From contig CM041776.1 of the NCBI GenBank assembly GCA_023374045.1, forward strand, positions 318,395,925 through 318,459,924: DNA of 64,000 bases. Reading direction: 5' to 3'. This DNA comes from Limonium bicolor (taxonomy: Eukaryota; Streptophyta; Magnoliopsida; Caryophyllales; Plumbaginaceae). How positions within the stretch are numbered: position 1 is the stretch's first letter; each line of letters starts with the position of its first letter. Below, piece by piece: positions 22,750 to 60,670 of this stretch. The position numbers and the translations under genes are program-made. The notes below the pieces were generated by a model. It ran no database searches, was not told the DNA's origin, and saw only the letters and a list, made by a program, of their open reading frames with translations.

Positions 22750-22794
22750 AGGACCTGATGGCTGCTGGGTCGCTGGGATGCTAATTTAGGGAAT

Positions 22795-35097: not shown

Positions 35098-35343
35098 TAT
35101 TAAGCTGATATTAGTTTGTTAGAAGGCATTAATTAGTTTGTTAGCATTAATTAGTTTGTTAGTTGAGCTGTCACTTTGTTACAGCTTTATCCTCTTTGTA
35201 TAAATACCCTACGCTTTGTACTTATCACAAGTTAAGCAGTTCTAGCTCCATTGAGCTTACTGTTCTCTCAATACAGAGGAATATTCATCATTACTTCGTT
35301 TCTCTTTTCTGTCTCACAAATACTATCTACAAGAAATTCTACA
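35098..35343 (+). repeat. Copia 5' LTR
   Basis: Contains a TATA-like CTTTGTATAAATACCCT near 35198, so transcription would start in the LTR. Matches 39953-40199. Confidence 0.95.
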
Positions 35344-35356
35344 TGGTATCAGAGCT
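35344..35356 (+). promoter_or_regulatory. Copia primer-binding site (initiator Met tRNA)
   Basis: TGGTATCAGAGCT directly abuts the 5' LTR and is the standard plant tRNA-iMet complement. Confidence 0.93.
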
Positions 35357-35417
35357 ACGGCTTTGATTGGCATTCAATTTCTCGATTCTTCTTCCCTTCC
35401 TGTGAGGATCCTTTTCG

Positions 35418-36233
35418 ATGGCGACGCCTCCATCGGGACGCACACTGGAGGAGATTCTCGAGACGATGAATTCGAACAGATCTCACCAAGGGATAGTGGA
35501 TATGTCGGATACCTTATTCATCGCCACCTCCGATCATCCCGGCATGGTTATCGCAGAGAAATTCACCGGCACTGGATTCCAAATGTGGAAGAGGACAGTT
35601 CTGATTTCAATAATGACGAAGAACAAAGTTGGAATACTCGATGGAACTCTCGTCAAGGATACGGAGGATGAAAAGAAGGGAATCGCATGGACCAGATGTG
35701 ATAGTTTGGTGAAGTCCTGGCTTCTGAATGCTGTAGATAAGCAGATCGGAGAGAGCTTAGTCTACCTTCCCACCGCCTCTGAGATGTGGAAGAGCCTCCT
35801 ATCCAGATACGACAGTATTGACGGCACTAGAAGATTCAACCTAAAGCAAGAATTGGCCGCCTTGAAACAAGGTAAAGATTCTGTCAGCGTTTATTTCTCA
35901 AAATGGAAGAGAATCTGGGATGAACTTGGATCGGTAGTGTGCTATTCTCCCTGTAAGTGCTGTAAATGCGGAGAAACTGATAAGATGAAGAAAATGTTTG
36001 AGGAAGATAAACTACTGGACTTTCTTATGGGACTTAATGAAGATTTTATCAATGTTCGAGGAAATATGTTGATGATGAATCCTCTGCCAAGCCTAGAGAG
36101 TGGTTATGCTCTAATCCTATCTGAGGAAAGACAACGTGAGAGTAGCAAAAGTAAGAAAGAAGAAGGAAGTGAAGTTACTTTTGCTAACTCGGCGGGCGTT
36201 AATTACAAACCACAACAGAGGCTTGAATGGTAG
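35418..36233 (+). CDS. Copia gag, ended early by an in-frame UAG
   Basis: 271 residues from an ATG 62 bases after the PBS. The N-terminal region (HPGMVIAEKFTGTGFQMWKR, then KNKVGILDGT) is the Retrotran_gag_3 type found in plant Copia elements, followed by the UBN2-like gag domain. It forms the capsid of cytoplasmic virus-like particles (family knowledge). The frame stops at TAG 36231-36233, before the zinc knuckle, and reopens in the same frame, so gag lacks its nucleocapsid motif unless the codon is read through. Confidence 0.85.
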   Translation: MATPPSGRTLEEILETMNSNRSHQGIVDMSDTLFIATSDHPGMVIAEKFTGTGFQMWKRTVLISIMTKNKVGILDGTLVKDTEDEKKGIAWTRCDSLVKSWLLNAVDKQIGESLVYLPTASEMWKSLLSRYDSIDGTRRFNLKQELAALKQGKDSVSVYFSKWKRIWDELGSVVCYSPCKCCKCGETDKMKKMFEEDKLLDFLMGLNEDFINVRGNMLMMNPLPSLESGYALILSEERQRESSKSKKEEGSEVTFANSAGVNYKPQQRLEW

Positions 36234-39200
36234 AATGAACACAGATCTGCCAAGAATCCATGTTCTTTCTGTGGTAAGATGGGGCACAATATAGATTCTT
36301 GCTACAAGAAAAATGGATTTCCGAAGGGATGGAAATTTGGAAAGAATAAGAAAAATATTTCAAACAATGTCACTGCTGAAGAGATGAAACGTGCATATCC
36401 TATCCCAGGGTTGTCACAGGAACATCTCAACTCCCTCATTGGTTATCTGCAACAAGTTAATACTGGAAGGAAGGAAACTCCTGAAGAAAATCATTCCACT
36501 TACTGCAACTTTGCCGGTAAGCGTATTAATCATTCTATGCATTATTGTTTGGGAGTAGTCAATGAGATGTGTGATGAGAGATTTCCTGAAAATAATTGGA
36601 TATTGGATAGTGGAGCAACTGAACACCTTACTGGTGATAGAAGTTTGTTCAACAGTTTTACAGAGTCGGATAAATTTCTTACAGTCTACTTACCAGATGG
36701 AAGAGTTGAGCAAGTTGATACTGTAGGAAGTGCTCGATTAGGACAGGAAGTCTTTCTGCAAAATACTTTGCTGGTTCCCAGTTTCAAGTATAACCTGATT
36801 TCTGTGAACAGATTCACCATACAGATGAGATGTAGAATGATTTTTCTTGCTGATTGCTGTATCATGCAGGACCAAGTCTTGGATGATGAAGAAAGGATTG
36901 GATTTGTGAAAAGAGGGCTGTACATACTTGACAATGCAGCTCTGGTTAGGTTTCTTGAAAGGAGAAAGAAGAAACAGACCACTGCTTGTAATGTTTTGAT
37001 ACAGAATAAAGCTGTCTACTGGCATAATAGGCTTGGACACGTCCCTGTAGAAAAGCTTGTTAAGCTAGGGGTTATTAGACAGTCTGATATTCCTACAGTC
37101 TTTGCTTGTGATTCATGTTATAGAGCACGAGGTTGTAGACTTCCTTTTCAAAGTTCTAATAATGAATCTGTTGAATTTTTTGATCTGATTCATTTGGATA
37201 TTTGGGGCCCCTGTTCTGTTAAAAACCATGATCAGTCGTCTTATTTTCTTAGCATCGTGGAAGATAAAAGTAGAACATTGTGGGTTAAATTGTTAAGTAA
37301 AAAATCAGAAGCAACAGATCAAATCAAGGAATTTATCCTGATGATCGAGAATCAGTTTGGGAAGAGAGTCAAAGTAGTAAGGTCTGATAACGCTTATGAG
37401 TTGGGGTTATCTAAAGATGCTACTGCTTTCTTCAAAGGAAGAGGAATCATTCATCAGACTTCTTGTCCACACACACCTCAGCAAAACGGTGTGGTGGAAA
37501 GAAAACATAGGTATGTTCTTGAGACTGCTCGTGCTGTCTTCTTTCAGTCTTGCTTACCTATGAACTACTGGGGTGAAAGTATTCTGTTTGCTACTGCAAT
37601 TATCAACCGATTGCCAAGTTCTAAATTGAATGGTTTAACCCCTTATGAGGTGTTGTTCAAGGAGAAACCAAGTTATGATTCTTTAAAAACTTTCGGTTGC
37701 CTAGCATATGCTACTGTTACTCATCAAGGAAAAAGGAAGTTTGATCCGAGAGCTGATAAATGTGTCTACTTGGGACCAAGTTTTCACAGCAAAGGTCACA
37801 AGCTTTTACGCTTAAGGGATAAGAAGATTATAGTCAATAGAGATGTTAAATTTTTTGAGACTATATTCCCTTTTGCTCAGAATGTCAATGATTTGTGCCA
37901 GTCACATCAGACAGTTCAAGAATGTTTCTCTTCAGAACAGTTATATATTGATGATGATGATCAGGATTATATCAGTATGCAGACAGTTAATCCTACAGCT
38001 GATTTCTCTTCTCCAGTTCATACCATCAGCGACACAGATAACATTCCTGAATTTCCTGCTTCTTCTGTGGCTGATGATACTCAGTCTGATGATCGTATTG
38101 TTGATACAGACACAATTCCCCTCAGAAGATCCACACGATCTTGTCAACCTCCCAAACACCTTCAAGACTATTTCGTTGGTCTTTCTGAAGGTAACACCCT
38201 CTGCACAGATGATTCCTATTCACAAATTCTGTCTGCTAGATTGTCTAATAACATCAGTGATCGAGTAGTATTGAATGTTGATACCTTGACTGATGTTAAA
38301 CCGGTTGCAAACGGTAGCTGTATTTTTGGTTTGGGAGCACAGCTTGCTGATTATTCTCAGGTTGATCTTCATGAACCTACCACTTATTCTGAAGCATGCA
38401 AGAAAACTCATTGGCAGAAAGCCATGGAAGCAGAATTGTATGCTTTGGAAGCAAATCAAACTTGGGAGTTAACTACTTTACCCAAAGGAAAAAAGGCGGT
38501 TGGCTGTAAGTGGGTATACCGTGTTAAGTTGAAATCAGATGGCACTCTTGAGCGTTACAAAGCTCGATTGGTTGTGAAAGGATTCACACAAAAGGAAGGC
38601 ATTGACTATACAGAAACATTTTCTCCGGTGGTGAGAATGACAACCATTCGAACCCTTCTCTCTGTTGCAGTTAAGAAAAATTGGAGGATCGAACAACTGG
38701 ACGTGAACAATGCTTTCTTACACGGGTCTCTTGATGAGGAGATTTATATGAAGCTGCCCCCAGGTATTTCACACTCTGATCCCACTTTGGTTTGCAAACT
38801 GAAGCGATCCTTATATGGGTTAAAACAGGCTTCGCGCCAATGGTATTCTCGCTTAGCTACTTTCCTCAAACAGCAAGGATACTGCAACTCATATAATGAC
38901 TATTCTCTGTTCTTTAAATCTGATGCTGCTTCTGTGGTATTTGTGGGTGTTTATGTTGACGATCTGTTAGTCTGCGGCAACGATGACAAAGAAATAGAGT
39001 GTTTGAAACTGAATCTTGACAGAGAATTTAAGATCAAAAACTTGGGACAGCTGCATTATTTTCTGGGACTAGAGTTTCAGCGCACCAACTCAGGTCTCCT
39101 CATCACTCAGAAAAAGTATTCTTTTGATCTTATTCGAGAATTTGGTGTCGAACACACCAAAGCTGTTGTTAGTCCTCTCGAGGTTGGAGTCAAGCTTCTA

Positions 39201-39923
39201 CCTGATAGTGGCAGTCCTCTCTCAGATCCTGAACTCTACAGAAGGTTGGTGGGTAAATTGAATTACCTAACAAACACTCGCCCAGATTTAAGCTTTACGG
39301 TTCAACATTTGAGCCAATTTCTTCAGTCACCACATGATGCGCACTATGAGGCTGCTCTTCATACACTCAAATATGTTCGAGGAACTTTGGGCAATGGCCT
39401 TTTTCTCAGTAACAAACCCGTTTATGACCTAGTCGCGTTCTGCGATTCAGATTGGGCGGCCTGCCCATTGACTAGAAGATCGGTTAGTGGCTATTTCATC
39501 TTATTTGGTGGTTGCCCAGTTTCATGGAAATCTAAGAAACAAGTTTCAGTTTCTTTATCTTCAGCTGAAGCTGAATATAGGGCAATGCGAAATGTCACCA
39601 CCGAATTGGCCTGGTTAACCAGATTGTTGCATGATTTTGGGGTTACCGGCATAAACCCGATTCCTTTGAAGTGTGATAACAAATCGGCGGTTTACATTGC
39701 CAAAAACCCTATTATGCATGAGAGAACCAAACATGTTGAAATAGATTGCCATTATGTTAGAGACCAGATTCGCAATGGATTAATCTGTGTTGATTATATC
39801 CCAACACAACTTCAGCTGGCTGATATGTTCACGAAGAGCTTATATGGCAAGGATTACAGAAATCAGTTTTCTGAGATGGGTCTCTGTGATGATCTTCATT
39901 TGCCTCCTAATTCCAAGACTTGA
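36234..39923 (+). CDS. Copia zinc knuckle plus pol polyprotein (protease, integrase, RT, RNase H)
   Basis: Continues the gag frame after the UAG without another break to the stop at 39921-39923. In order: CCHC knuckle 36261-36302 (CSFCGKMGHNIDSC); aspartic protease DSGA at 36606-36617; GAG pre-integrase/HHCC zinc finger near 37020-37120; integrase core with LDIWGP, SDNAYE and the PQQNGVVERKHR stretch; reverse transcriptase with DVNNAFLHG and YVDD near 38952; RNase H with CDSDWA and SSAEAEYRAM; end ADMFTKSL. The order integrase before RT defines Copia. The first ATG after the UAG is at 36279, inside the knuckle, so independent initiation would give a damaged product. Confidence 0.92.
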   Translation, partial: NEHRSAKNPCSFCGKMGHNIDSCYKKNGFPKGWKFGKNKKNISNNVTAEEMKRAYPIPGLSQEHLNSLIGYLQQVNTGRKETPEENHSTYCNFAGKRINHSMHYCLGVVNEMCDERFPENNWILDSGATEHLTGDRSLFNSFTESDKFLTVYLPDGRVEQVDTVGSARLGQEVFLQNTLLVPSFKYNLISVNRFTIQMRCRMIFLADCCIMQDQVLDDEERIGFVKRGLYILDNAALVRFLERRKKKQTTACNVLIQNKAVYWHNRLGHVPVEKLVKLGVIRQSDIPTVFACDSCYRARGCRLPFQSSNNESVEFFDLIHLDIWGPCSVKNHDQSSYFLSIVEDKSRTLWVKLLSKKSEATDQIKEFILMIENQFGKRVKVVRSDNAYELGLSKDATAFFKGRGIIHQTSCPHTPQQNGVVERKHRYVLETARAVFFQSCLPMNYWGESILFATAIINRLPSSKLNGLTPYEVLFKEKPSYDSLKTFGCLAYATVTHQGKRKFDPRADKCVYLGPSFHSKGHKLLRLRDKKIIVNRDVKFFETIFPFAQNVNDLCQSHQTVQECFSSEQLYIDDDDQDYISMQTVNPTADFSSPVHTISDTDNIPEFPASSVADDTQSDDRIVDTDTIPLRRSTRSCQPPKHLQDYFVGLSEGNTLCTDDSYSQILSARLSNNISDRVVLNVDTLTDVKPVANGSCIFGLGAQLADYSQVDLHEPTTYSEACKKTHWQKAMEAELYALEANQTWELTTLPKGKKAVGCKWVYRVKLKSDGTLERYKARLVVKGFTQKEGIDYTETFSPVVRMTTIRTLLSVAVKKNWRIEQLDVNNAFLHGSLDEEIYMKLPPGISHSDPTLVCKLKRSLYGLKQASRQWYSRLATFLKQQGYCNSYNDYSLFFKSDAASVVFVGVYVDDLLVCGNDDKEIECLKLNLDREFKIKNLGQLHYFLGLEFQRTNSGLLITQKKYSFDLIREFGVEHTKAVVSPLEVGVKLLPDSGSPLSDPELYRRLVGKLNYLTNTRPDLSFTVQHLSQFLQSPHDAHYEAALHTLKYVRGTLGNGLFLSNKPVYDLVAFCDSDWAACPLTRRSVSGYFILFGGCPVSWKSKKQVSVSLSSAEAEYRAMRNVTTELAWLTRLLHDFGVTGINPIPLKCDNKSAVYIAKNPIMHERTKHVEIDCHYVRDQIRNGLICVDYIPTQLQLADMFTKSLYGKDYRNQFSEMGLCDDLHLPPNSKT

Positions 39924-39944
39924 GGTCTTTTCCCTCTACGTCTT

Positions 39945-39952
39945 GAGGGGGG
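39945..39952 (+). promoter_or_regulatory. Copia polypurine tract
   Basis: GAGGGGGG immediately before the 3' LTR; the plus-strand DNA primer site. Confidence 0.85.
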
Positions 39953-40199
39953 TATTAAGCTGATATTAGTTTGTTAGAAGGCATTAATTAGTTTGTTAGC
40001 ATTAATTAGTTTGTTAGCTGAGCTGTCACTTTGTTACAGCTTTATCCTCTTTGTATAAATACCCTACGCTTTGTACTTATCACAAGTTAAGCAGTTCTAG
40101 CTCCATTGAGCTTACTGTTCTCTCAATACAGAGGAATATTCATCGTTACTTCGTTTCCTCTTTTCTGTCTCACAAATACTATCTACAACAAATTCCACA
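39953..40199 (+). repeat. Copia 3' LTR
   Basis: Near-identical to 35098-35343, ending CCACA at the TCCAA duplication. Confidence 0.95.
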
Positions 40200-40204
40200 T
40201 CCAA

Positions 40205-44052: not shown

Positions 44053-44057
44053 GTTAG

Positions 44058-47000
44058 TGTAACACCCCCGAATAAAACATCCATAGATTTAATGAAGCGT
44101 CTGACAATATCATAAGTTAACTTGCAGCGGTATAAACTCCATCCGGGTGCTACAGACGCCAACCACCCACGTGGTTGACATGACCACTCTACTAACATCA
44201 AGTTACGGTCTGCATGACTGGAAACAGCTCTCACCAAAATTCATATACTATATAAGATACAATTCCAAATGTTGAGTGTCTACAACAAATTGCCAAATTA
44301 TAAACTGAAATTACATCTCGGGTACATTAAACATACGGCCACATCCTCAAACGTTATGCCCTGATGGACTACCCCCATGGTAGCCATCCCGCCTACGCTC
44401 CGTTATCGTTCGGCATAATACCTGTAAAAATTTGGGTTGGGAAGGACTCAGCAAACTACGCTGAGTATGAACGTGTGTAGCCCGCATGTTGCCGGGCCAC
44501 ACGACTACTTGGTCGAATATTATTAAGTCAATTTACATGCTATAGTAAAGCAGTAAAGCACACCACAATATATCATGATATCATACACACTTAAGGTAGC
44601 AAAACCTTAGTAACAAGCATCCAAGCATCACATATTGGCATCATAGCAACATCAAACACGCAACCAAGCACAACAAGCTGCTAGTATGGCACACAAACAA
44701 TTATGTAAGTCATCAAACACGTGCATAAGTATGTTTACCAATGATCCTCACTATGGGATCGTTCGAGCGTTGTGTGTTTTCATTACTTTTCTCTTGTTCC
44801 CATAATGTATATTTTCTTCCTCTTTCCTTGCACCAGGTTTGGGGGTACGGTTCAAATCCCGTGACCACATCTTGTAGGTATTAATCTTTTCCTTGTTTCT
44901 TTAAGGTTTATTTGTGAATTCTCTTATCACCACAAGTTGTCGAACGTCTTCTCCATAGCTAATCCTCCATTCCCGGCGTCGTGCGTCGAGGAAGCGGGGT
45001 CGTCTTTAGACTTCAGGATGTGCTCCACCAATAGGTATTTTACTTTTCATTAACATTATAAGTTCGACACCATAGTGGGTGTCATTAGAAGTCCTCTATA
45101 GTTTAAGAGGAGTCCTCTTCTTGTATAGTTGTTTCGTTTTGTTTGCGTAGTTAGTTGTGTTTCATCTCAAGTTCATGAACGAGAAGGGACTAAACTACTG
45201 TGTGCGCGCAAATAATATGCAACAATGATATAGCAATCATACAAGCAAGATAAGCAAGCAATCCAATTTCATGCTTTAATCTTATGGTCATTTTCACACA
45301 AGGCACACAGCAAACAAGCCGTGTAACACGGCAACATACGAACCACACATGTCCATACCTTTTTCGCTAGTTCGAGTCGTCTCACACTCGGAGTCCCGGT
45401 CGGAGCACGCTACGATCCTAGAGTTAATTAAAGCAATGTGTCAGCTCACTATTTTATGTGACGACACTTTATATCGTATGTTATTCCTTAGGTATGTTGT
45501 TACACGCTTAGCTTAGATTGACTCTTAGAATCCCGCATGCGTTAACCCTAGGCTTAACTTACTCCTAGGATATTTCATATCTTTATTTACATGTTAATCA
45601 AGCCCTTTTTCCTTAGTTAATGTCTTAGGGCGTTTTAAGAGGTAATTATGTAACAAGTTTGTGTAACATAGATATGTCTTATCTAATGTGTATTCCTTTC
45701 TTAGATAAATAGGTGAGTGATATTTTAACCCTTGTAACGATACTGTAAATCATAGTATACCCCTTAGAACCCATTTATACAGAAATCCAACCGTTTCAAA
45801 ATCTGAACTCATTCCCCATGTAACACCTTATCTAACTTCACTTTTAATGTATTCATTGATGTGTAATCTTCTCCACATCCTTGGCTATCCTAGTTATATT
45901 TATTTGTTGTTATTAGAATTCATTGGTACACTAATATCATGCCTACGGTACTCTCATGACCCAGTATACAGAAGCTATAATGTTATTGAAACTGAAACAG
46001 ACCCCAAGTATTTCCTCTTATTTTCTCCCTTCTTCCCCGATCAGTTAGAACCCCAACCTGTCCCAAACGTTTATATCTTTGTTCGAGAGTATCAACTTAG
46101 TTTTAGGTTGATCATCAGCCATAACCAGCCGCCCACACCTACTGTGACACTCTATACAGAAACCTCATCGAGGAAAACTACAAAATTGAAGTGAGCTGAA
46201 AACAGAAAGTACTCAGGTTGTCGCACCCTCCCACTGTTATTTTCTTTTTGAGGTGTGAGTTGATTTCTCCAGTACTCCCCATCTCATAGATACTTAGTTA
46301 AAAGTTAAATCTCCATATTACACTCCACCCACTCCAATGATCCTCACTTAATTCACTGCACCGAAACTAATCTCAATCTGTAACTGAGAACCCGATGTGC
46401 AACTTTCCATGATTGTTGGTTTCTGACCATTTCAAATTCTCTTCTGTTTAGTCACACTTTTGTCTTTCAAATCCCCAAGGTGCCTATCTGTTTAGTTGAG
46501 TGTGAAGCCACAGTTTAAACTCAAAACCACTCCAGCTACTCACTACTTACCCTCTGTACAGAACCAGAAAACCTGAGGTGAATTAAAGAAACTGTTAAAA
46601 CTGAAGTTTAATTCTGTTCTGGTTTATCTTTCTGTTTAGGATCTTATCTTGGTTTCCATTTCCTCAGCTATTTAGTTCCTTAGTTGAGTGGTTTTTGTGT
46701 GGTTTTATATCCCTAGACAGACCCAAAACTACTATAGGCATACTCAATAAGTTTTCTGTACAGAACTGAATACAACCTGTAACTTAAGACTGGACTGATA
46801 TTTCTCTTCTTCTTTTTTTTTTCGTTTCTGTTTCCAATCTGTTACTTGTTTCCTTTCTAGGTATCTGTATTTGGTTAGTGTTAACAAGTCTTTAAACTCG
46901 TGAGCAGACATGACTAACCAGGAAGATGTAGTTAGCCACTGAAACTGTGACAGAAACCCAAGATTAACTTTCAACCAGAAACCTGAACTGATTTCGACAA

Positions 47001-50000
47001 TCTGAAACAGAAACTGTTATGACTTCCTTTTCTTCTGTTATTGTTTCTCCTGTTATTTTACTTCTGTTCTCTAGTCCATCTCTTAGTTCCCTCAAATGTC
47101 TTAGTATTTTATTACGGTTCTAGTTCTAATACAACCTAAAGCAAGGCAGTTGTACCCACTGAAACAGACTAATACAGAACCTCCAGAAGCTCAGAAAACT
47201 GAAACTAACAAAACAAGGAATGAACTGCTTCAGTTCTTTTCTTCTTACTGTTTTCTTTTCTGTTTGTTCTCATGAGTTGATCATCCGTTTTTTTTTTCAT
47301 TGCTAGTTCAAGTAGTACAGGGTGTGCTAGGTTTGAGTTTCAACATACCCAAAATAGCCTAGTTAACAATCCTGGATAGCTTTTTACAGAAGCAGCACCT
47401 GAAACACTAAAACACTAAAACTGGTGTTTACCTCTATTGTATTTCTGTTCTTGTTTGCAGTTTGGTTTGCCATTCTTCCCAACTTATTTAGCTGTTTAGT
47501 TAGGACCTCTATGCAGTTTAACTCTCAGAATAGACCCTAAAGTGGCATGGACTACTACTAGACCCAACCCTGAAACTGAAGTTTAACACTGAAACTGAAA
47601 GAGGCAGAACCCATGGTCTGTTGTATTTCTTTTCGGTTACTTGTCTCTCTATCTTTCCCATGATGCTTAGACATTTACTTAAATGGGTTAGGATGATTTA
47701 GACCCAATAACTGCTCAAATACAACCTGCTACAGTTTTCTGTAACAGAAGCATACAGACCTAAGTCCTCGGTAGCAACTTTAAGTTGGAATGCAAAACTG
47801 ATATCTTCTTTCTTCTTCTGTTATTTTGCTTTGGTTACCTGATCTGTTCTTTGGGTTTTCCTCACGGCTTTAGTTACCTACTCGTGTGTCTTATTACAGT
47901 TCTAGTTCTATGACAACCCAAGACCCTAAGTGAAAACTACAGAAAACCATATTTACTGAAAACTGAATAACTGATGTCCTCTTCTGTTTCAGTTCTGGTT
48001 TTCTCACGCCCATGTTTTTTTTTTGTTTTCTTTCCTAGCTCTCCCCCCATTGATAGCTCACTTAGTTATAGGTTCTTTTAACATTTTAAACCCAAACAGT
48101 AGTAGTCACACCCCTGAGAAATTCATATACAGAAACCATATATCTTTAAGAAACTGAAACTAAAGCATTGTTTCTGTCATTGCTTCTTCTGTTCTTCTAA
48201 CCTGATTCTAGTTTCTTTTTGTTTCCCAATTAGCCTTAGCAGTATTACCTGATGTTAAGTCCCTTAATAATCATCACTACTCCACGGTACACCCTAGCCT
48301 GCTAGAATACAGACACAACAGATTATAAGATTCAGTAGATCCTCAGTTTGACAGGACCACTCAACATTAAGTTGTTTCGGTGTTCTCTTTTTTTTTTCTT
48401 TTCTCTCCGAGTCCCTTAGTTGTTTAACTAGTGAGTTTAGGGTGGTTTTATCCTCGAAAGCAACCCACAAGACACTGTCTATACTTGAGTAGTTTACGAC
48501 ACAGAAACTCCAAGTTTCAGAAACTGTAACAAGTTATCGGTTTGCCCTTGATAGATCGGTTATTTTTTTTTGTATTGCTGTATTAAATCTAAGGATGGCT
48601 CACCTCTTGTTTTAGCTGTCTCCCTTGGTTGCTTCCAGGCACAATGTGAAGCTCCCAGATCTTGGGTTATTTGACCGCAACTGAGACATTTACTCAGGTG
48701 TTAAAACTAGTGACAGAAACTGATTAATGCACAGATAGGTTTCCTTCTCTCTTTTCTTTTGTGCTCACCTTGGCTGATATTCACCAGGATGCTTTGGTTT
48801 TCTGGCAAGTCTCTGCACACCTTGTGAAGGTATTCCCAAGATGTTCATGCATGCACACAGAAGTAGGAAAGGAGGAGTCAAATACAGGGACTTTTTGGAC
48901 ACGACAAGACAGAAGGAATGGGGTGGGTAGTACTGGCATTAACAGACAAGGGGCTGATGCAACAGGTCGTTGAGAACCTGATTAGGAATTTACCTTGGCC
49001 CTTTTTTTTTGAAACAGAAGTGAGATGGTTCTTCCTGGAGAGCTTTGGCAAACTTGTTAGAGTCAGAGAGCTGGTTTACTTTGCTCCAGGAGCTCTTCCT
49101 AGACTGGTACAACCGAGATGGGCACTTGCGTGAGACAGACACCAGCTGAATTGGCTATCGGGAGACAATAAGGAATCAGGGAGGTCTCATGTTGGTATTA
49201 TCGGGTAAGGAAAAACCCATCAAAGAAAGATGAACAGAGTCCAGCAGTTGCTTACCTTGAGTGTTAAAATCAGAGAGGATGAGGGAGCTTCCTGCCCATG
49301 CAGAAACGTTGCACAGCAGGCGAGAGAAGGATAGTCTAGGGGTTATATGAAAATAGATAGCACATGGCATGAGGGACAGTGTGCAGGGGTTGTGAGAGTT
49401 TGAAACACACAGTCTAAGCGTGGGAGTTTGTAAAAGAAACGTGGATTCTGGTGTATAGTTTTTTTTTTGAAACTAACAGAGCTGTCTGCTTGTCTGTTGA
49501 CTGAATTGTGATGACGCTGGGAATTGGGAGTAGGGAATGAGAACAACTAGATAATGAAAGGGTAGTAGCAGACGGTCAGGTACAACAGGGACGTGCGAGA
49601 GGTCTGAGGCATTGGTCTTCTTGGTTCCCGAGGATGCAGGGGATCGATTGGGGTAATGGGAGTGTGCCAGTTACAAGAGGGTATGGGCTCATGAGAGGAA
49701 AGGAACTCCTGTCGCATGAGTGGAGATAAGCAAGTGACGGGTGGAAATCTGTTTGCTCGATCTTGCTGTAATGGAGAAGGAAGAGCCGGTGCAGTTACAG
49801 AGATGCGTGTGATTCACTTAGTCTCTCATTACTTTAGTCGATTGGGTACTAATTTTATTTCGTGTGAGTTAGTAGCTGAATTCGAGCACAGCTCACCCGG
49901 TTACAGCGTTTATAAGATATACGAGAGGTCTCGGGTTCAAACCTTAGTGGGAGCGTCCTTGCCCCTTTTTCTGTTTTTTTTTTGTAACTATATACCTACT

Positions 50001-50245
50001 TATTTATATATATGTAAGACTATATACTATATCGTTTTATATTTACTTGCTTATTGTTACAAGGTTATGCGACGTTATCATTTTATTACAACGTTACGAT
50101 ATCGTAACGTTACATATTTGTAGTTTTCGTATTCGTACATACACATGTATATACATATACTAGATTTAATTATTCGTACGTTATTTTATGTCCGTATTAT
50201 AAAACGTGTTATGATTTAATACGTTTAATATTTAGGGGTGTTTCA
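44058..50245 (-). repeat. 3' LTR of the giant element (left)
   Basis: 6188 bp. Contains the degenerate ~190-bp array (about 46230-48560). Short minus-strand frames such as that at 44237 recur in the other LTR and have no recognised domain. A B-box-like GGTTCAAA sequence is present near 44848 and near 49938. Confidence 0.92.
46230..48560. repeat. Degenerate tandem array, unit about 190 bp, about 11 copies (left LTR)
   Basis: Each unit alternates an A-rich ACAGAAACTGAAAC-like part, a T/C-rich TTCTTCTGTTTCTG-like part and a TTTAGTTGAG-like marker. Markers fall near 46494, 46681, 46873, 47080, 47273, 47497, 47665, 47868, 48062, 48235 and 48415, mean spacing about 192. The matching array in the right LTR is at about 56640-58985. 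Copies are too diverged for exact borders. Confidence 0.6.
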
Positions 50246-50258
50246 GCTTATCCCCCTT
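50246..50258 (-). promoter_or_regulatory. Polypurine tract of the giant element
   Basis: Minus-strand AAGGGGGATAAGC directly precedes the minus-strand LTR start TGAAACACCCC. Confidence 0.7.
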
Positions 50259-51835
50259 AAAAGAGGCTTCGTCCCGAAGTCTTACTTCTTTAACTTACAA
50301 TTTCCTCTCCTAGCAATCTTAGGGATCCAGTCCGTAACTATAATGCTCAGTGCTTCTAAGCACCATGCCACGTCAGTGGCTTCATACAAGTTTTCATAGT
50401 AGACCAAGAAGCTAGCAATGAGTATAACATGTTAAAGTGCCAGTCAAGACACACAATGTTCATTCATACAGAGCATACATATACGTACATAACATTTCCA
50501 CAGGTATACGAACACAGTTCACACACATAGCATCCAAAACATAGCACATCACACGAGCAACAACATAGCAAAACGAAACACGCCTACCCCCCCCCCCCTT
50601 AAAAATGGATTACGCCCACGTAATCCTTTTTGTACCATCCTAGAACCTTAGTTCAGGTTGTTTTAACTCTCATTGAGCATTCTAGTTTCTATGCATTGTA
50701 GCTTACAATATGCTCTCATCATAGGCCTTGATCATGTTAAGGGTTTTAGTCTTTGTATCCAAGAGGCTCTTATCAGTAGTCGTACTGATCTAGAAACGGA
50801 TTCGGGTTTAGCCTCTCTAGGTTTAAGGTATTGGCCGATAGGTCACTTGTTACTCAACTGGAAGATGTGTGATATGGCCCACCAGCTTCTGCTGCGCGAC
50901 TCTGATTACCTTCGGGTTTATCTTTCCCTTACTAAGTCTTTCAAGGTAGTGGATGGTTTAATTGTTTCCTCCGCCTAGTCTCTTGGCTAACATGGGGTAA
51001 TTTAATTCGTACACGGTCTCTGTGGATTGTATTTTGTCTACTCAGTTCCTTTGGAGACTGGGTATTCATGCTTTTGGTACGCTTTTTAAGTGTCTAGATT
51101 TTTTTGTTTCTGGCTGCCCCTTTTGGGTGTTAATGATTTAGTTCTTGTTATTTGAATGTTATCGACGTGTCACTGTTACCATGATTGGTTTAGGTTTTTA
51201 CTACCGCTCATACTTATTTTTAGTTTTTTACAACCCGGTTAGACGTCTTTCGTCTCTAAGTATCTTCATTTTCCAACCCAATTATGGCTTTGATCCTGTT
51301 GGTTGACTTCGATTGGTTTCAGTCAAAAGGTTACTAAATTATATATGTTAGAAGTTTCTGTGGTTGCATCCCCTAAATTTCGAATCATGTATCAATGTAT
51401 TCCACCCGTTTGTAATATCTACATCGATATCGCATCCTTCATATTTGTAGTTCGTGTGTCCACTTGTAGGAGGTCTCGGGAGTTATCCAACCCTTACGTG
51501 GTCAGCGTAAGTGTTGAACTATCCTTCCACCCCAATTTGTGCTCAGTATCACTTGACCTGACCAGGGTCAAGTTCAACCTCGCACGTCCAACAAACGATC
51601 ATTCAATTTAATCTTTCCAACTATGTATATATCTAAATGTATACATATATACTTTACCTCATTCTTGTATCCATAATATGTGTACTTATGTGTTATAAGT
51701 TCCAAGGTTGTATTTGAATTATACTACCATTTTGTCTTAAATACGCACATATGGTTGTTTCCATTAATTAAATGGTATATTGGTACATACATTCGTACCC
51801 TTCTGATATTATCATTCATTCCAAGATCATAGGGA

Positions 51836-52618
51836 GATGTAGTATGGATATAGGTGATCCATCCGCACCGTATTATAGATATGGATAGGTGATCCATCCG
51901 CACCGTATTCATAGATATAGTATGGATATTGGTGATCCATCCGCACCGTATTCATAGATATAGTATGGATATAGGTGATCCATCCGCACCGTATAGATAT
52001 AGATATATGGATATAGGTGATCCATCCGCACCGTATAGATATAGTATGGATATAGGTGATCCATCCGCACCGTATAGATAGTATGGATATAGGTGATCCA
52101 TCCGCACCGTATAGATATAGTATGGATATAGGTATCCCATCCGCACGTATAGATATAGTATGGATATAGGTGATCCATCCGCACCGTATAGATATAGTAT
52201 GGGATAGGTGATCCATCCGCACCGTATAGATATAGTATGGATATAGGTGATCCATCCGCACCGTATAGATATAGTATGGATATTGGTGATCCATCCGCAC
52301 CGTATAGATATAGTATGGATATTGGTGATCCATCCGCACCGTATAGATATAGTATGGATTGGTGATCCATCCGCACCGTATAGATATAGTATGGATATTG
52401 GTGATCCATCCGCACCGTATAGATATAGTATGGATATTGGTGATCCATCCGCACCGTATAGATATAGTATGGATATGGTGATCCATCCGCACCGTATAGA
52501 TATAGTATGGATATAGGTGATCCATCCGCACCGTATAGATATAGTATGGATATAGGTGATCCATCCGCACCGTATAGATATAGTATGGATATTGGTGATC
52601 CATCCGCACCGTATTCAT
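51836..52618. repeat. 39-bp minisatellite, about 20 copies
   Basis: Unit core GATCCATCCGCACCGTATAG followed by ATATAGTATGGATATAGGT. Most copies are near-identical; a few at the left have GTATTCATAG, and one near 52138 has lost bases. Because 39 is divisible by three, long repetitive open frames (up to 263 codons, minus strand) run through it; these are by-products and not a gene. Confidence 0.95.
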
Positions 52619-54454
52619 AGTCTCCCCATATGATTATGTTCTCTTAATCTTCTTGCCTTATGTTTAACCCCATGTGTCATGGTTGTTATACTGGATAGGA
52701 GAAATTAAGTTATACGATATTGTATAATTGAATTTAAATCATAAGGTTGGAAATTTCTTGGCTAAGTAATATTAATCTTGAAAAACATTTGAAGTAAGAA
52801 GATATAAATACTTCCACATATACAGTTGGTATTTAAAGTGGATATAATACGTGTATAGGTAAGACTATTCACATAAAACAAATGTGATAATAATGATTAA
52901 ATGAGCTTACAAAATAATGAGTATAGTGAATAAACTTTGAAAGTTTATTATGGTATTATACAAATGTTACATGATATCAAGATAGGAATCTCTATATAAA
53001 TTTGTATAACATATTACAAACTAGTGAGAATAATCGCCTTACATAAAATAATGAAATGTAACATCAAATAAAGGGAGTTTTATAAGATATATATATTGTA
53101 CGTGCATAAAGGCGTGACTAATATTTGTAGGAAAATACGTATAAAATATGGTTGAGGACCATACAATATTAAATGATGGGTGTTATAAGTGAATAGAGTT
53201 GATAAACTGTAAATTATACAATCAAGGGTAGCATATTGCAAAGTACATGAATTATATAATACATGTAACTATATTATATGATTAAATCAAAGAAAACAAC
53301 ATATATCAATATGTGCATATGTAAAACCCAGAAGATACGTATATGTAAGTGTATACAATATGGTTTTAATGTCGTGAAGTGATAGATGACACGTGTCATG
53401 ACATCGCTATCAATATATATATGCTGTAAATCATACAGTGTAAATTAAAGTATAGTTTATTTAAAATGAATAACGTGATATGTAATATATGGTACAATAC
53501 CAAATGGTGAAGTAATACTATCATATAACGTTGCATGTGTGATCATTTCCTTCATAACCATAGTTAATGCTATACACCTGATCCAAAGGGTTTATTTTTA
53601 TAACATTGAATTCCACAGTTACCCGTTGCATTGTTTGCGGGCGTTTTTTTTTTTTTTTAACAGTTTCCTCTTTCGGAACTTGTTCCTCCATGATCGGAGC
53701 TTAACTCTCTATGACACACAACTCCTTTTATTTGGTCTCCTTGAACAACATATTTGATAGATGTTTGAACATAGTGGCGGATTTATTGCCATTTTTTTTT
53801 ATCTGCTTGCCTTGTGTTGGGGTAGGGAATTTATTGAATTCCGTAATATTATACTTTAGTGCGTAAAATTTGTGCCATGCTTAATTAAGCATTATAGATT
53901 GTACCAATTTTATGGTGTAATTTTGTCTTGAACCATATCCTCTCATTACATGGTTTTACGAGGGGTTTTCTAAAATTAACTCCTAGTGTACGAGTTGAAA
54001 TTTATCTCATTCCCTCCTTTGCTTAAGTAATTGCTTATTTTAGCTTTATTTATTTCATGTATTTTAGGGTATTTTGGTCCTCTTTGCTTGTGTGGTTGGT
54101 CCTATCGACTGCTAAGCATGTCGACCCAAGTTGTCGCTAAAATTGGTCCCTCTACGGGTATTATCCCTTTTGGCAACGTCGATTGTGTAGTATGGTCTTT
54201 TCTCCTCGGGTTGATGTGTAACATTAAGTAGATGCCAGATCGGGTTTCCCCGAGTAAGAGGAGGCTTTCTACCTCTCCGGCGTTTTTCTATGATTTGAAA
54301 TGGACTCTTTGGACGTAGGGGTTGGGTGTGGGTGTCTGTTGGGTATCCAGTAATTACTGGGGAGAATCCTAGCTATCGCGCCTCACATACTAACCCTTAA
54401 CCCCGTTTCCCCGAATTCTGGTTTTCCTATGCTCGGTACCTCTCTCTGTTCCTC

Positions 54455-54478
54455 ATCAGAGCGCAACTACGCTCTGAT
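54455..54478. promoter_or_regulatory. Perfect 9-bp-stem hairpin overlapping the primer-binding site
   Basis: ATCAGAGCG, loop CAACTA, CGCTCTGAT. The right arm overlaps the PBS, so RNA folding here would pair with the primer site. Confidence 0.7.
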
Positions 54479-54482
54479 ACCA
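54471..54482 (-). promoter_or_regulatory. Primer-binding site of the giant element (initiator Met tRNA)
   Basis: Minus-strand TGGTATCAGAGC, five bases inside the LTR ending at 54488. It fixes element orientation as minus. Confidence 0.85.
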
Positions 54483-54487
54483 CTTTC

Positions 54488-57400
54488 TGTAACACCCCGA
54501 ATAAAACATCCATAGATTTAATGAAGCGTCTGACAATATCATAAGTTAACTTGCAGCGGTATAAACTCCATCCGGGTGCTACAGACGCCAACCACCCACG
54601 TGGTTGACATGACCACTCTACTAACATCAAGTTACGGTCTGCATGACTGGAAACAGCTCTCACCAAAATTCATATACTATATAAGATACAATTCCAAATG
54701 TTGAGTGTCTACAACAAATTGCCAAATTATAAACTGAAATTACATCTCGGGTACATTAAACATACGGCCACATCCTCAAACGTTATGCCCTGATGGACTA
54801 CCCCCATGGTAGCCATCCCGCCTACGCTCCGTTATCGTTCGGCATAATACCTGTAAAAATTTGGTTGGGAAGGACTCAGCAAACTACGCTGAGTATGAAC
54901 GTGTGTAGCCCGCATGTTGCCGGGCCACACGACTACTTGGTCGAATATTATTAAGTCAATTTACATGCTATAGTAAAGCAGTAAAGCACACCACAATATA
55001 TCATGATATCATACACACTTAAGGTAGCAAAACCTTAGTAACAAGCATCCAAGCATCACATATTGGCATCATAGCAACATCAACACGCAACCAAGCACAA
55101 CAAGCTGCTAGTATGGCACACAAACAATTATGTAAGTCATCAAACACGTGCATAAGTATGTTTACCAATGATCCTCACTATGGGATCGTTCGAGCGTTGT
55201 GTGTTTTCATTACTTTTCTCTTGTTCCCATAATGTATATTTTCTTCCTCTTTCCTTGCACCAGGTTTGGGGGTACGGTTCAAATCCCGTGACCACATCTT
55301 GTAGGTATTAATCTTTTCCTTGTTTCTTTAAGGTTTATTTGTGAATTCTCTTATCACCACAAGTTGTCGAACGTCTTCTCCATAGCTAATCCTCCATTCC
55401 CGGCGTCGTGCGTCGAGGAAGCGGGGTCGTCTTTAGACTTCAGGATGTGCTCCACCAATAGGTATTTTACTTTTCATTAACATTATAAGTTCGACACCAT
55501 AGTGGGTGTCATTAGAAGTCCTCTATAGTTTAAGAGGAGTCCTCTTCTTGTATTGTTGTTTCGTTTTGTTTGCGTAGTTAGTTGTGTTTCATCTCAAGTT
55601 CATGAACGAGAAGGGACTAAACTACTGTGTGCGCGCAAATAATATGCAACAATGATATAGCAATCATACAAGCAAGATAAGCAAGCAATCCAATTTCATG
55701 CTTTAATCTTATGGTCATTTTCACACAAGGCACACAGCAAACAAGCCGTGTAACACGGCAACATACGAACCACACATGTCCATACCTTTTCGCTAGTTCG
55801 AGTCGTCTCACACTCGGAGTCCCGGTCGGAGCACGCTACGATCCTAGAGTTAATTAAAGCAATGTGTCAGCTCACTATTTTATGTGACGACACTTTATAT
55901 CGTATGTTATTCCTTAGGTATGTTGTTACACGCTTAGCTTAGATTGACTCTTAGAATCCCGCATGCGTTAACCCTAGGCTTAACTTACTCCTAGGATATT
56001 TCATATCTTTATTTACATGTTAATCAAGCCCTTTTTCCTTAGTTAATGTCTTAGGGCGTTTTAAGAGGTAATTATGTAACAAGTTTGTGTAACATAGATA
56101 TGTCTTATCTAATGTGTATTCCTTTCTTAGATAAATAGGTGAGTGATATTTTAACCCTTGTAACGATACTGTAAATCATAGTATACCCCTTAGAACCCAT
56201 TTATACAGAAATCCAACCGTTTCAAAATCTGAACTCATTCCCCATGTAACACCTTATCTAACTTCACTTTTAATGTATTCATTGATGTGTAATCTTCTCC
56301 ACATCCTTGGCTATCCTAGTTATATTTATTTGTTGTTATTAGAATTCATTGGTCACTAATATCATGCCTACGGTACTCTCATGACCCAGTATACAGAAGC
56401 TATAATGTTATTGAAACTGAAACAGACCCCAAGTATTTCCTCTTATTTTCTCCCTTCTTCCCCGATCAGTTAGAACCCCAACCTGTCCCAAACGTTTATA
56501 TCTTTGTTCGAGAGTATCAACTTAGTTTTAGGTTGATCATCAGCCATAACCAGCCGCCCACACCTACTGTGACACTCTATACAGAAACCCTCATCGAGGA
56601 AAACTACAAAATTGAAGTGAGCTGAAAACAGAAAGTACTCAGGTTGTCGCACCCTCCCACTGTTATTTTCTTTTTTGAGGTGTGAGTTGATTTCTCCAGT
56701 ACTCCCCATCTCATAGATACTTAGTTAAAAGTTAAATCTCCATATTACACTCCACCCACTCCAATGATCCTCACTTAATTCACTGCACCGAAACTAATCT
56801 CAATCTGTAACTGAGAACCCGATGTGCAACTTTCCATGATTGTTGGTTTCTGACCATTTCAAATTCTCTTCTGTTTAGTCACACTTTTGTCTTTCAAATC
56901 CCCAAGGTGCCTATCTGTTTAGTTGAGTGTGAAGCCACAGTTTAAACTCAAAACCACTCCAGCTACTCACTACTTACCCTCTGTACAGAACCAGAAAACC
57001 TGAGGTGAATTAAAGAAACTGTTAAAACTGAAGTTTAATTCTGTTCTGGTTTATCTTTCTGTTTAGGATCTTATCTTGGTTTCCATTTCCTCAGCTATTT
57101 AGTTCCTTAGTTGAGTGGTTTTTGTGTGGTTTTATATCCCTAGACAGACCCAAAACTACTATAGGCATACTCAATAAGTTTTCTGTACAGAACTGAATAC
57201 AACCTGTAACTTAAGACTGGACTGATTTTCTCTTCTTCTTTTTTTTTTCGTTTCTGTTTCCAATCTGTTACTTGTTTCCTTTCTAGGTATCTGTATTTGG
57301 TTAGTGTTAACAAGTCTTTAAACTCGTGAGCAGACATGACTAACCAGGAAGATGTAGTTAGCCACTGAAACTGTGACAAACCCAAGATTAACTTTCAACC

Positions 57401-60400
57401 AGAAACCTGAACTGATTTCGACAATCTGAAACAGAAACTGTTATGACTTCCTTTTCTTCTGTTATTGTTTCTCCTGTTATTTTACTTCTGTTCTCTAGTC
57501 CATCTCTTAGTTCCCTCAAATGTCTTAGTATTTTATTACGGTTCTAGTTCTAATACAACCTAAAGCAAGGCAGTTGTACCCACTGAAACAGACTAATACA
57601 GAACCTCAGAAGCTCAGAAAACTGAAACTAACAAAACAAGGAATGAACTGCTTCAGTTCTTTTCTTCTTACTGTTTTCTTTTCTGTTTGTTCTCATGAGT
57701 TGATCATCCGTTTTTTTTTCATTGCTAGTTCAAGTAGTACAGGGTGTGCTAGGTTTGAGTTTCAACATACCCAAAATAGCCTAGTTTAACAATCCTGGAT
57801 AGCTTTTTTACAGAAGCAGCACCTGAAACACTAAAACACTAAAACTGGTGTTTACCTCTATTGTATTTCTGTTCTGTTTGCAGTTTGGTTTGCCATTCTT
57901 CCCAACTTATTTAGCTGTTTAGTTAGGACCTCTATGCAGTTTAACTCTCATAATAGACCCTAAAGTGGCATGGACTACTACTAGACCCAACCCTGAAACT
58001 GAAGTTTAACACTGAAACTGAAAGAGGCAGAACCCATGGTCTGTTGTATTTCTTTTCGGTTACTTGTCTCTCTATCTTTCCCATGATGCTTAGACATTTA
58101 CTTAAATGGGTTAGGATGATTTAGACCCCATAACTGCTCAAATACAACCTGCTACAGTTTTCTGTAACAGAAGCATACAGACCTAAGTCCTCGGTAGCAA
58201 CTTTAAGTTGGAATGCCAAACTGATATCTTCTTTCTTCTTCTTCTGTTATTTGCTTTGGTTACCTGATCTGTTCTTTGGGTTTTCCTCACGGCTTTAGTT
58301 ACCTACTCGTGTGTCTTATTACAGTTCTAGTTCTATGACAACCCAAGACCCTAAGTGAAAACTACAGAAAACCATATTTACTGAAAACTGAATAACTGAT
58401 GTCCTCTTCTATTTCAGTTCTGGTTTTCTCACGCCCATGTTTTTTTTTGTTTCTTTCCTAGCTCTCTAGCTCTCCCCCCCTTGATAGCTCACTTAGTTAT
58501 AGGTTCTTTTAACATTTTAAACCCAAACAGTAGTAGTCACACCCCTGAGAAATTCATATACAGAAACCATATATCTTTAAGAAACTGAAACTAAAGCATT
58601 GTTTCTGTCATTGCCTCTTCTGTTCTTCTAACCTGATTCTAGTTTCTCTTTGTTTCCCAATTAGCCTTAGCAGTATTACCTGATGTTAAGTCCCTTAATA
58701 ATCATCACTACTCCACGGTACACCCTAGCCTGCTAGAATACAGACACAACAGATTATAAGATTCAGTAGATCCTCAGTTTGACAGGACCACTCAACATTA
58801 AGTTGTTTCGGTGTTCTCTTTTTTTTTTTCTTTTCTCTCCGAGTCCCTTAGTTGTTTAACTAGTGAGTTTAGGGTGGTTTTATCCTCGAAAGCAACCCAC
58901 AAGACACTGTCTATACTTGAGTAGTTTACGACACAGAAACTCCAAGTTTCAGAAACTGTAACAAGTTATCGGTTTGCCCTTGATAGATCGGTTATTTTTT
59001 TTTGTATTGCTGTATTAAATCTAAGGATGGCTCACCTCTTGTTTTAGCTGTCTCCCTTGGTTGCTTCCAGGCACAATGTGAAGCTCCCAGATCTTGGGTT
59101 ATTTGACCGCAACTGAGACATTTACTCAGGTGTTAAAACTAGTGACAAAACTGATTAATGCACAGATAGGTTTCCTTCTCTCTTTTCTTTTGTGCTCACC
59201 TTGGCTGATATTCACCAGGATGCTTTGGTTTTCTGGCAAGTCTCTGCACACCTTGTGAAGGTATTCCCAAGATGTTCATGCATGCACACAGAAGTGAAAG
59301 GAGGAGTCAAATACAGGGACTTTTTGGACACGACAAGACAGAAGGAATGGGGTGGGTAGTACTGGCATTAACAGACAAGGGGCTGATGCAACAGGTCGTT
59401 GAGAACCTGATTAGGAATTTACCTTGGCCCTTTTTTTTTGAAACAGAAGTGAGATGGTTCTTCCTGGAGAGCTTTGGCAAACTTGTTAGAGTCAGAGAGC
59501 TGGTTTACTTTGCTCCAGGAGCTCTTCCTAGACTGGTACAACCGAGATGGGCACTTGCGTGAGACAACACCAGCTGAATTGGCTATCGGGAGACAATAAG
59601 GAATCAGGGAGGTCTCATGTTGGTATTATCGGGTAAGGAAAAACCCATCAAAGAAAGATGAACAGAGTCCAGCAGTTGCTTACCTTGAGTGTTAAAATCA
59701 GAGAGGATGAGGGAGCTTCCTGCCCATGCAGAAACGTTGCACAGCAGGCGAGAGAGGATAGTCTAGGGGTTATATGAAAATAGATAGCACATGGCATGAG
59801 GGACAGTGTGCAGGGTTGTGAGAGTTTGAAACACACAGTCTAAGCGTGGGAGTTTGTAAAAGAAACGTGGATTCTGGTGTATAGTTTTTTTTTGAAACTA
59901 ACAGAGCTGTCTGCTTGTCTGTTGACTGAATTGTGATGACGCTGGGAATTGGGAGTAGAGAATGAGAACAACTAGATAATGAAAGGGTAGTAGCAGACGG
60001 TCAGGTACAACAGGGACGTGCGAGAGGTCTGAGGCATTGGTCTTCTTGGTTCCCGAGGATGCAGGGGATCGATTGGGGAAATGGGAGTGTGCCAGTTACA
60101 AGAGGGTATGGGCTCATGAGAGGAAAGGAACTCCTGTCGCATGAGTGGAGATAAGCAAGTGACGGGTGGAAATCTGTTTGCTCGATCTTGCTGTAATGGA
60201 GAAGGAAGAGCCGGTGCAGTTACAGAGATGCGTGTGATTCACTTAGTCTCTCATTACTTTAGTCGATTGGGTACTAATTTTATTTCGTGTGAGTTAGTAG
60301 CTGAATTCGAGCACAGCTCACCCGGTTACAGCGTTTATAGATATACGAGAGGTCTCGGGTTCAAACCTAGTGGGAGCGTCCTTGCCCCTTTTTCTGTTTT

Positions 60401-60665
60401 TTTTTGTAACTATATACCTACTTATTCATATATATGTAAGACTATATACTATATCGTTTTATATTTACTTGCTTATTGTTACAAGGTTATGCGACGTTAT
60501 CATTTTATTACAACGTTACGATATCGTAACGTTACATATTTGTAGTTTTCGTATTCGTACATACACATGTATATACATATACTAGATTTAATTATTCGTA
60601 CGTTATTTTATGTCCGTATTATAAAACGTGTTATGATTTAATACGTTTAATTTAGGGGTGTTTCA
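54488..60665 (-). repeat. 5' LTR of the giant element (right)
   Basis: 6178 bp, colinear with 44058-50245 at an offset of about 10.42 kb. By eye it shows roughly a dozen substitutions but clearly more one- or two-base indels, often in homopolymers. The ~190-bp array recurs at about 56640-58985. Confidence 0.92.
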
Positions 60666-60670
60666 GTTAG

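Follow-up and report, generated by a model that had tools for sequence, protein, structure and literature searches.

A recent non-autonomous retrotransposon of Limonium bicolor with 6.2-kb terminal repeats and a probable Ty3/gypsy chromovirus partner lineage

How can a retrotransposon move when each of its long terminal repeats (LTRs) is longer than an interior that seems to encode no enzyme? The question is raised by an element on the minus strand of a 64,000-nucleotide stretch of Limonium bicolor DNA (contig CM041776.1), which we call the window. We conclude, with a probability of about 0.84, that it is a recent non-autonomous LTR retrotransposon of the large retrotransposon derivative (LARD) kind, which stems from a Ty3/gypsy chromovirus (perhaps of the Tekay clade) and is mobilised by it in trans. 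As sequence comparison shows, it retains from the chromovirus lineage the LTR ends, a primer-binding site (PBS) of the tRNA-iMet type, a leader of ~110 bp and the 3′ end with its polypurine tract (PPT), while gag-pol has been replaced by unrelated non-coding DNA.

The original prediction described an LTR pair of ~6.18 kb, a GTTAG duplication, a PBS and a PPT around an interior of 4.2 kb. A BLAST of the window against itself, which gives a direct repeat pair of 6.2 kb at 99.1% identity, and the exact ends of the parts (LTRs of 6188 and 6178 bp, interior of 4242 bp) bear this out, and the LTR pair makes up about three quarters of the element. Its orientation had not been given. We find that TGGTATCAGAGC, which we take to be a PBS of the tRNA-iMet type, lies 5 nt interior of the right LTR and that AAGGGGGA adjoins the left LTR on its interior side; both are on the minus strand and the element therefore reads from right to left. 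The LTR pair thus comes with a target-site duplication (TSD), a PBS and a PPT, as in a LARD. Aligned with each other, the two LTRs show 20 substitutions and 27 mostly 1-bp gaps, which gives an insertion age of ~0.125 million years at 1.3e-8 per site per year, a rate used for Chrysanthemum (PMC8497461) and for this host illustrative only. When the element and one TSD copy are removed in silico, an uninterrupted frame of 306 aa spans the insertion site, and a separate piece near the site matches an RRM domain (Pfam).

The interior had also been said to lack any enzyme domain, and this agrees with a Pfam scan of 26 stop-to-stop open reading frame (ORF) pieces of the element and four flanking pieces. 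No retroelement domain was found in the 14 interior pieces scanned (out of 26 with 50 aa or more), in the 12 right-LTR pieces scanned (out of 24 with 60 aa or more) or in the four flanking pieces. The 14 interior pieces contain neither gag, which would have pointed to a terminal-repeat retrotransposon with gag domain (TR-GAG), nor any trace of a hidden pol, as expected of a LARD. A 39-bp tandem repeat present in 20 copies accounts for the three longest interior frames, whose Pfam matches are below the cut-off.

Based on a search of the genome (2.92 Gb in 2686 contigs), the element has relatives elsewhere. Among the best 40 of 14507 candidates for the LTR query, which were scored, six near full-length matches make up three elements including that of the window, and there are a seventh, shortened match and many partial ones. 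Both further full copies, A and B, lie on C3. Copy A is flanked on both sides by TATGG, a perfect TSD, and a solo LTR on C6, which carries an internal deletion, by GGCCC; the 5-mers flanking copy B are unequal (TGTAG and TATGG). These full copies and the solo LTR, two of which (copy A and the solo LTR) have TSDs that differ from that of the window element, support the earlier proposal of a non-autonomous, LARD-like, multi-copy family. Their different flanks also exclude chance as the source of the window's repeat pair.

At C3:24426591-24474727, copies A and B lie inverted relative to each other and 559 bp of right flank are alike at 95.5%, an arrangement that suggests an inverted duplication or an assembly feature. 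Because copy B shares this flank with A while its 5-mers differ, it does not count as a clean, separate insertion event.

LTR lengths of 6442, 6452 and 6770 bp occur in other subfamilies; the two interiors measured are 4231 and 4342 bp long. Five of the seven related loci compared cover 93–100% of the interior but just 36–52% of the LTR; at the remaining two, C3:126.4M and C5, the LTR is covered to 63% and 59% and the interior to 2% and 10%. The interior is thus conserved between separate copies, again as in a LARD. LTR pairs spaced ~10.7 kb apart were considered as autonomous elements and, for the five loci fetched, rejected, since these carry the same 4.2-kb interior. A tandem array at C5:209927120-209948200 (L026, L027, L028) consists of LTRs of ~6.35 kb and interiors of ~675 bp, at least three of the latter. 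Here the ratio of LTR to interior is about nine to one, and the interior barely exceeds the leader plus the 3′ end.

A pol-bearing relative had been suggested as the means of naming the partner lineage, and elements with exactly the same LTR-PBS junction provide it, in the form of gag, protease or reverse transcriptase pieces and, in one case, a chromodomain integrase. The 27-mer across this junction has 2942 exact occurrences in the genome, compared to 0 for the reversed control. Of these, 100 sites were listed and 60 sampled, every one of them on C1 within the first 85 Mb, at 900–1400 bp (20 sites) or 450–750 bp (40 sites) past the junction. The window interior is matched at 16 of the 60, gag-like coding is found at 10 and neither at 34. 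Nine of the gag-like sites come from the 450–750 bp sample and one from the 900–1400 bp sample (L044, a zinc-knuckle-like piece); L062 and L063 are near-identical and probably one duplicated locus. Among the listed C1 junctions, 10 of 99 neighbour gaps are shorter than 12 kb, all of them between junctions on the same strand, compared to 1.3 expected if uniform. Same-strand clusters on C1 have spacings of ~10.6, 9.3–9.7 and 7.9–8.0 kb, which suggests tandem arrays of several unit sizes.

Read further, the L044 element (L049) matches Retrotrans_gag (4.6e-14) and Ty3_capsid (1.3e-9) in Pfam; its gag has a single protein-database match (P0001, 65% identity) and its interior of ~2.05 kb is too short to hold pol. 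Retrotrans_gag is also matched by L062 (2.2e-9). For the other nine gag-bearing sites, one piece each was fetched 2.4–3.1 kb in. Pfam confirms a protease in two of them (RVP_2, 3.5e-24 in L090 and 7.1e-9 in L093) and a reverse transcriptase in one (RVT_1, 5.8e-19 in L092); three others resemble the same protease by eye, a further one can be aligned to the knuckle portion of L049, one shows nothing distinct and the last is ambiguous.

One protease-bearing element (C1:32063379-32069714, interior 6336 bp) continues to a chromodomain integrase. Its far end, L099, matches Integrase_H2C2 (6.4e-18), SH3_Tf2-1 (1.4e-22) and Chromo (7.4e-6), together with a weak rve match below the cut-off. The Chromo match (26.2 bits, cut-off 25.1) follows SH3_Tf2-1, and the integrase of this one element examined thus ends in a chromodomain, as in chromoviruses. 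The 3′ end of L099 aligns with that of the window element (70.8% identity, E 4.5e-42), and a PPT-like run lies 30 bp past the chromodomain frame; no LTR end was found in the 6.5 kb downstream.

At the other end, five of six gag-bearing relatives align with the LTR of the window element over 413–569 bp of its final ~570 bp, in stretches 71–73% identical. Four of these five (L102, L103, L105 and L106) also have the ~110-bp leader in common: L102 is the L093 element with its Pfam-confirmed protease, L103 and L105 have a protease by eye, and no pol piece was seen in L106. Past the leader, the relatives enter gag, whereas the window element enters unrelated DNA. The shared LTR ends, leader and 3′ end, combined over copies, point to a Ty3/gypsy chromovirus as the probable partner lineage. 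The element that surrounds the solo LTR on C6 (L013) was also tried as partner and rejected, as its gag-like pieces have no Pfam match. One of these pieces was searched further, with nothing useful in the PDB and no hit in the protein database, and two align with the L049 gag (41% over 59 aa, 51% over 39 aa).

A hairpin is predicted at window 54457-54480, over the PBS, in coding and non-coding relatives alike. In 51-nt folds, the stem has z-scores of -3.48 in the window, -4.65 in L102, -4.33 in L049 and -3.81 in L026, and a weaker stem is predicted in L013 (-2.07). The sixth folded piece, L010:975-1025 (z 0.49), is positioned off the PBS stem.

Nonetheless, a number of observations weigh against this reading. 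The frames of L099 are interrupted in the integrase and chromodomain region, and no intact helper was found. The 5′ part of the same element (L101) shares the LTR end, with most of the leader missing, and L104, which is the L092 site with the confirmed reverse transcriptase, has little in common with the window element beyond the junction. The leader, a full pol and the 3′ end occur together in no single copy among those compared. With an LTR identity to the relatives of just 71–73%, the actual helper may be a closer element outside the sample. The Tekay clade is a lead that comes from a resemblance to Bongo3 features only. Finally, 15 of the 20 substitutions between the LTRs fall within 512 bp (window 47706-48217), as could result from patchy conversion or assembly error.

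We propose the following route for the element. Transcription from the LTR would yield its RNA, which the Gag of the partner would package via the leader; reverse transcription would be primed by tRNA-iMet, and the chromovirus integrase would insert the product. LTR-LTR recombination may later have produced the solo LTRs and tandem arrays; long LTRs should offer targets for such recombination, consistent with the presence of both.

The ancestry of the element is mixed. We counted the positions at which the subfamilies C3:28.98M and C2:12.3M differ and assigned the window element to either. It sides with C3:28.98M at 187 of 191 differing sites in the PBS-side interior and 308 of 336 on the R/U5 side of the LTR, and with C2:12.3M at 127 of 148 in the PPT-side interior and all 33 at the U3 end. 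By these counts, the window element is a mosaic to which two or more subfamilies contributed. In reverse transcription, U3 derives from the 3′ end of the RNA and R-U5 from its 5′ end, so that a single interior switch in a hybrid RNA predicts the pattern observed. We therefore favour an origin in which RNAs of two subfamilies were packaged together and reverse transcription switched template between them. One RNA would have given the R/U5 side, the leader and the PBS-side interior; from the second would come the PPT-side interior together with the outer U3 end.

The LTR itself may be more composite. Among the best 40 candidates, 25 partial LTR matches start at position 1; nine of these, from five loci, end at 1723–1731 and the other 16 at 1357–1375 or 1746–1965. 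The cluster at 1723–1731 adjoins a TATAAA at LTR plus-position 1722, which is suggestive only, as TATA-like motifs are common in the LTR (11 matches). The C3:126.4M locus matches two stretches from the middle of the LTR at 96–97%, one in inverted orientation; part of the LTR middle resembles a third source. A tentative reading, which we hold to be possible but on balance doubtful, is that of a modular parasite: a conserved cassette from the TATA-like motif to the LTR end, the leader and the 3′ end would be kept for the chromovirus machinery, and a multi-kb U3 repeatedly exchanged by template switching, with the LTR changing faster than the interior. If so, the 6-kb LTR would be made up of successive, shuffled U3 modules.

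Could the same structure have arisen without mobilisation in trans? An autonomous element whose pol was lost only once it had inserted would likewise have ends belonging to the chromovirus lineage. However, other copies with near-identical LTRs carry this same non-coding interior, so the coding loss preceded transposition, and the scanned interior pieces show no pol remnant; such a decayed element is very improbable. Marginally less probable still is an assembly duplication, or a misplaced repeat taken for LTRs. The 27 gaps between the LTRs, mostly of 1 bp, do resemble long-read errors, but TSD, PBS and PPT are all in place, the joined site restores the continuous 306-aa frame, and other copies and the solo LTR have different flanks.

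A somewhat larger, though still small, chance is left to a spread mainly through DNA recombination, that is by tandem arrays and segmental duplication instead of retrotransposition. The excess of close same-strand junctions on C1, the LTR-interior array on C5 and the right flank shared by copies A and B on C3, with the differing 5-mers of B, all fit such a process. It accounts poorly for the perfect 5-bp TSDs, different in each case, of the window copy, copy A on C3 and the solo LTR on C6. Retrotransposition with chromovirus proteins acting in trans is the reading we prefer. The parts of the element are listed in Table 1.

Table 1 Features of the retrotransposon and its insertion site, in window positions
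Feature	Position	Strand	Remark
Whole LTR retrotransposon	44058-60665	minus	16608 bp
TSD GTTAG (left)	44053..44057
3′ LTR in sense	44058..50245	minus	6188 bp, TGAAACACCCC...GGGGTGTTACA
TATAAA, putative promoter core	45774..45779	minus	LTR plus-position 1722
PPT AAGGGGGATAAGC adjoining the 3′ LTR	50246..50258	minus
3′ interior end aligning with chromodomain-bearing relative	50246..50494	minus	70.8%, 325 columns including LTR start
Second PPT-like run	50587..50600	minus
Non-coding interior	50246..54487	minus	4242 bp
39-bp tandem repeat inside interior	51835..52614	minus	20 copies
Leader common to gag-bearing relatives	54376..54487	minus	84%, 115 columns (L049); junction plus leader 86.6%, 127 columns (L106)
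PBS TGGTATCAGAGC, in predicted hairpin	54471..54482	minus
5′ LTR in sense	54488..60665	minus	6178 bp
TSD GTTAG (right)	60666..60670

Two further candidate retroelements lie in the window. Positions 35098-40200 hold what appears to be a separate Copia-type element, with terminal repeats of ~248 bp that are 98% alike and a frame of 1229 aa. On the plus strand at 22759-25214, frames resemble by eye a non-LTR (long interspersed nuclear element, LINE) reverse transcriptase.

The partner of gene-less LTR elements is often merely assumed; here, the termini, the leader and the 3′ end tie the family to a chromovirus lineage of the same genome. The stretches kept in coding and non-coding relatives are the LTR end, the ~110-bp leader and the ~250 bp that precede the 3′ LTR, and together with the predicted PBS hairpin that they include they are candidates for the minimal set of cis signals.

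Among known systems, the anatomy of LARDs was reportedly set out for barley Sukkula by Kalendar and colleagues in 2004, with LTRs said to be ~4.4 kb long. Like Sukkula, the family described here has long LTRs, a conserved non-coding interior, a PBS and a PPT, many copies and no gag or pol found; it differs in its LTRs of 6.2–6.8 kb, the 39-bp array in its interior and a named partner lineage. TR-GAG elements form another category, and L049, the terminus-sharing relative that keeps gag in its ~2.05-kb interior, resembles it, whereas the interior pieces scanned from the window element gave no gag. General descriptions of LARDs are given in PMC8268840 and PMC7215508. At 16608 bp, the window element is far too large for a terminal-repeat retrotransposon in miniature (TRIM), for which an upper line of ~4 kb is drawn in PMC2533021.

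The original prediction held LTRs of this length around a coding-free body to be unusual. LTRs longer than the interior have a precedent in print, Mtr77 of Medicago, which is abundant and non-autonomous and has an LTR of 2191 bp, about ten times its interior of ~200 bp (PMC2533021). Mtr77 is much smaller than the window element and no partner is mentioned for it in the available text of that source; the C5 array comes closer to it in shape.

Bongo3 of beet, a Tekay element, has a tRNA-Met PBS, a 5-bp TSD, LTRs of 2561 bp, a chromodomain and an extra PPT near the end of its gag-pol frame (PMC3605345). The PBS type and the 5-bp TSD recur in the window element and the chromodomain in L099, which also resembles Bongo3 in the second PPT by the frame end; Bongo3 is autonomous with shorter LTRs, whereas the window element is non-coding. 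According to the same source, in the part available, the second PPT is absent from Bongo1, Bongo2 and other clades, and it therefore does not define Tekay. SbdRT-nis of Chrysanthemum is also non-autonomous and recently active, with a non-coding interior of 3.9 kb and ORF-bearing relatives that share its LTRs (PMC8497461). It differs in being of Copia type with LTRs of 775 bp, and SbdRT was accordingly rejected as the same family.

Cassandra, too, is known to form tandem arrays (PMC7215508), and plant LTRs longer than 3 kb are described as uncommon, with sizes to more than 5 kb on record (PMC3485330). We found no description of the window element's family in the literature searched, most subscription papers being outside its reach. 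The shape of the element is thus already known from LARDs and Mtr77, and what sets it apart is that its LTRs are unusually long and a patchwork.

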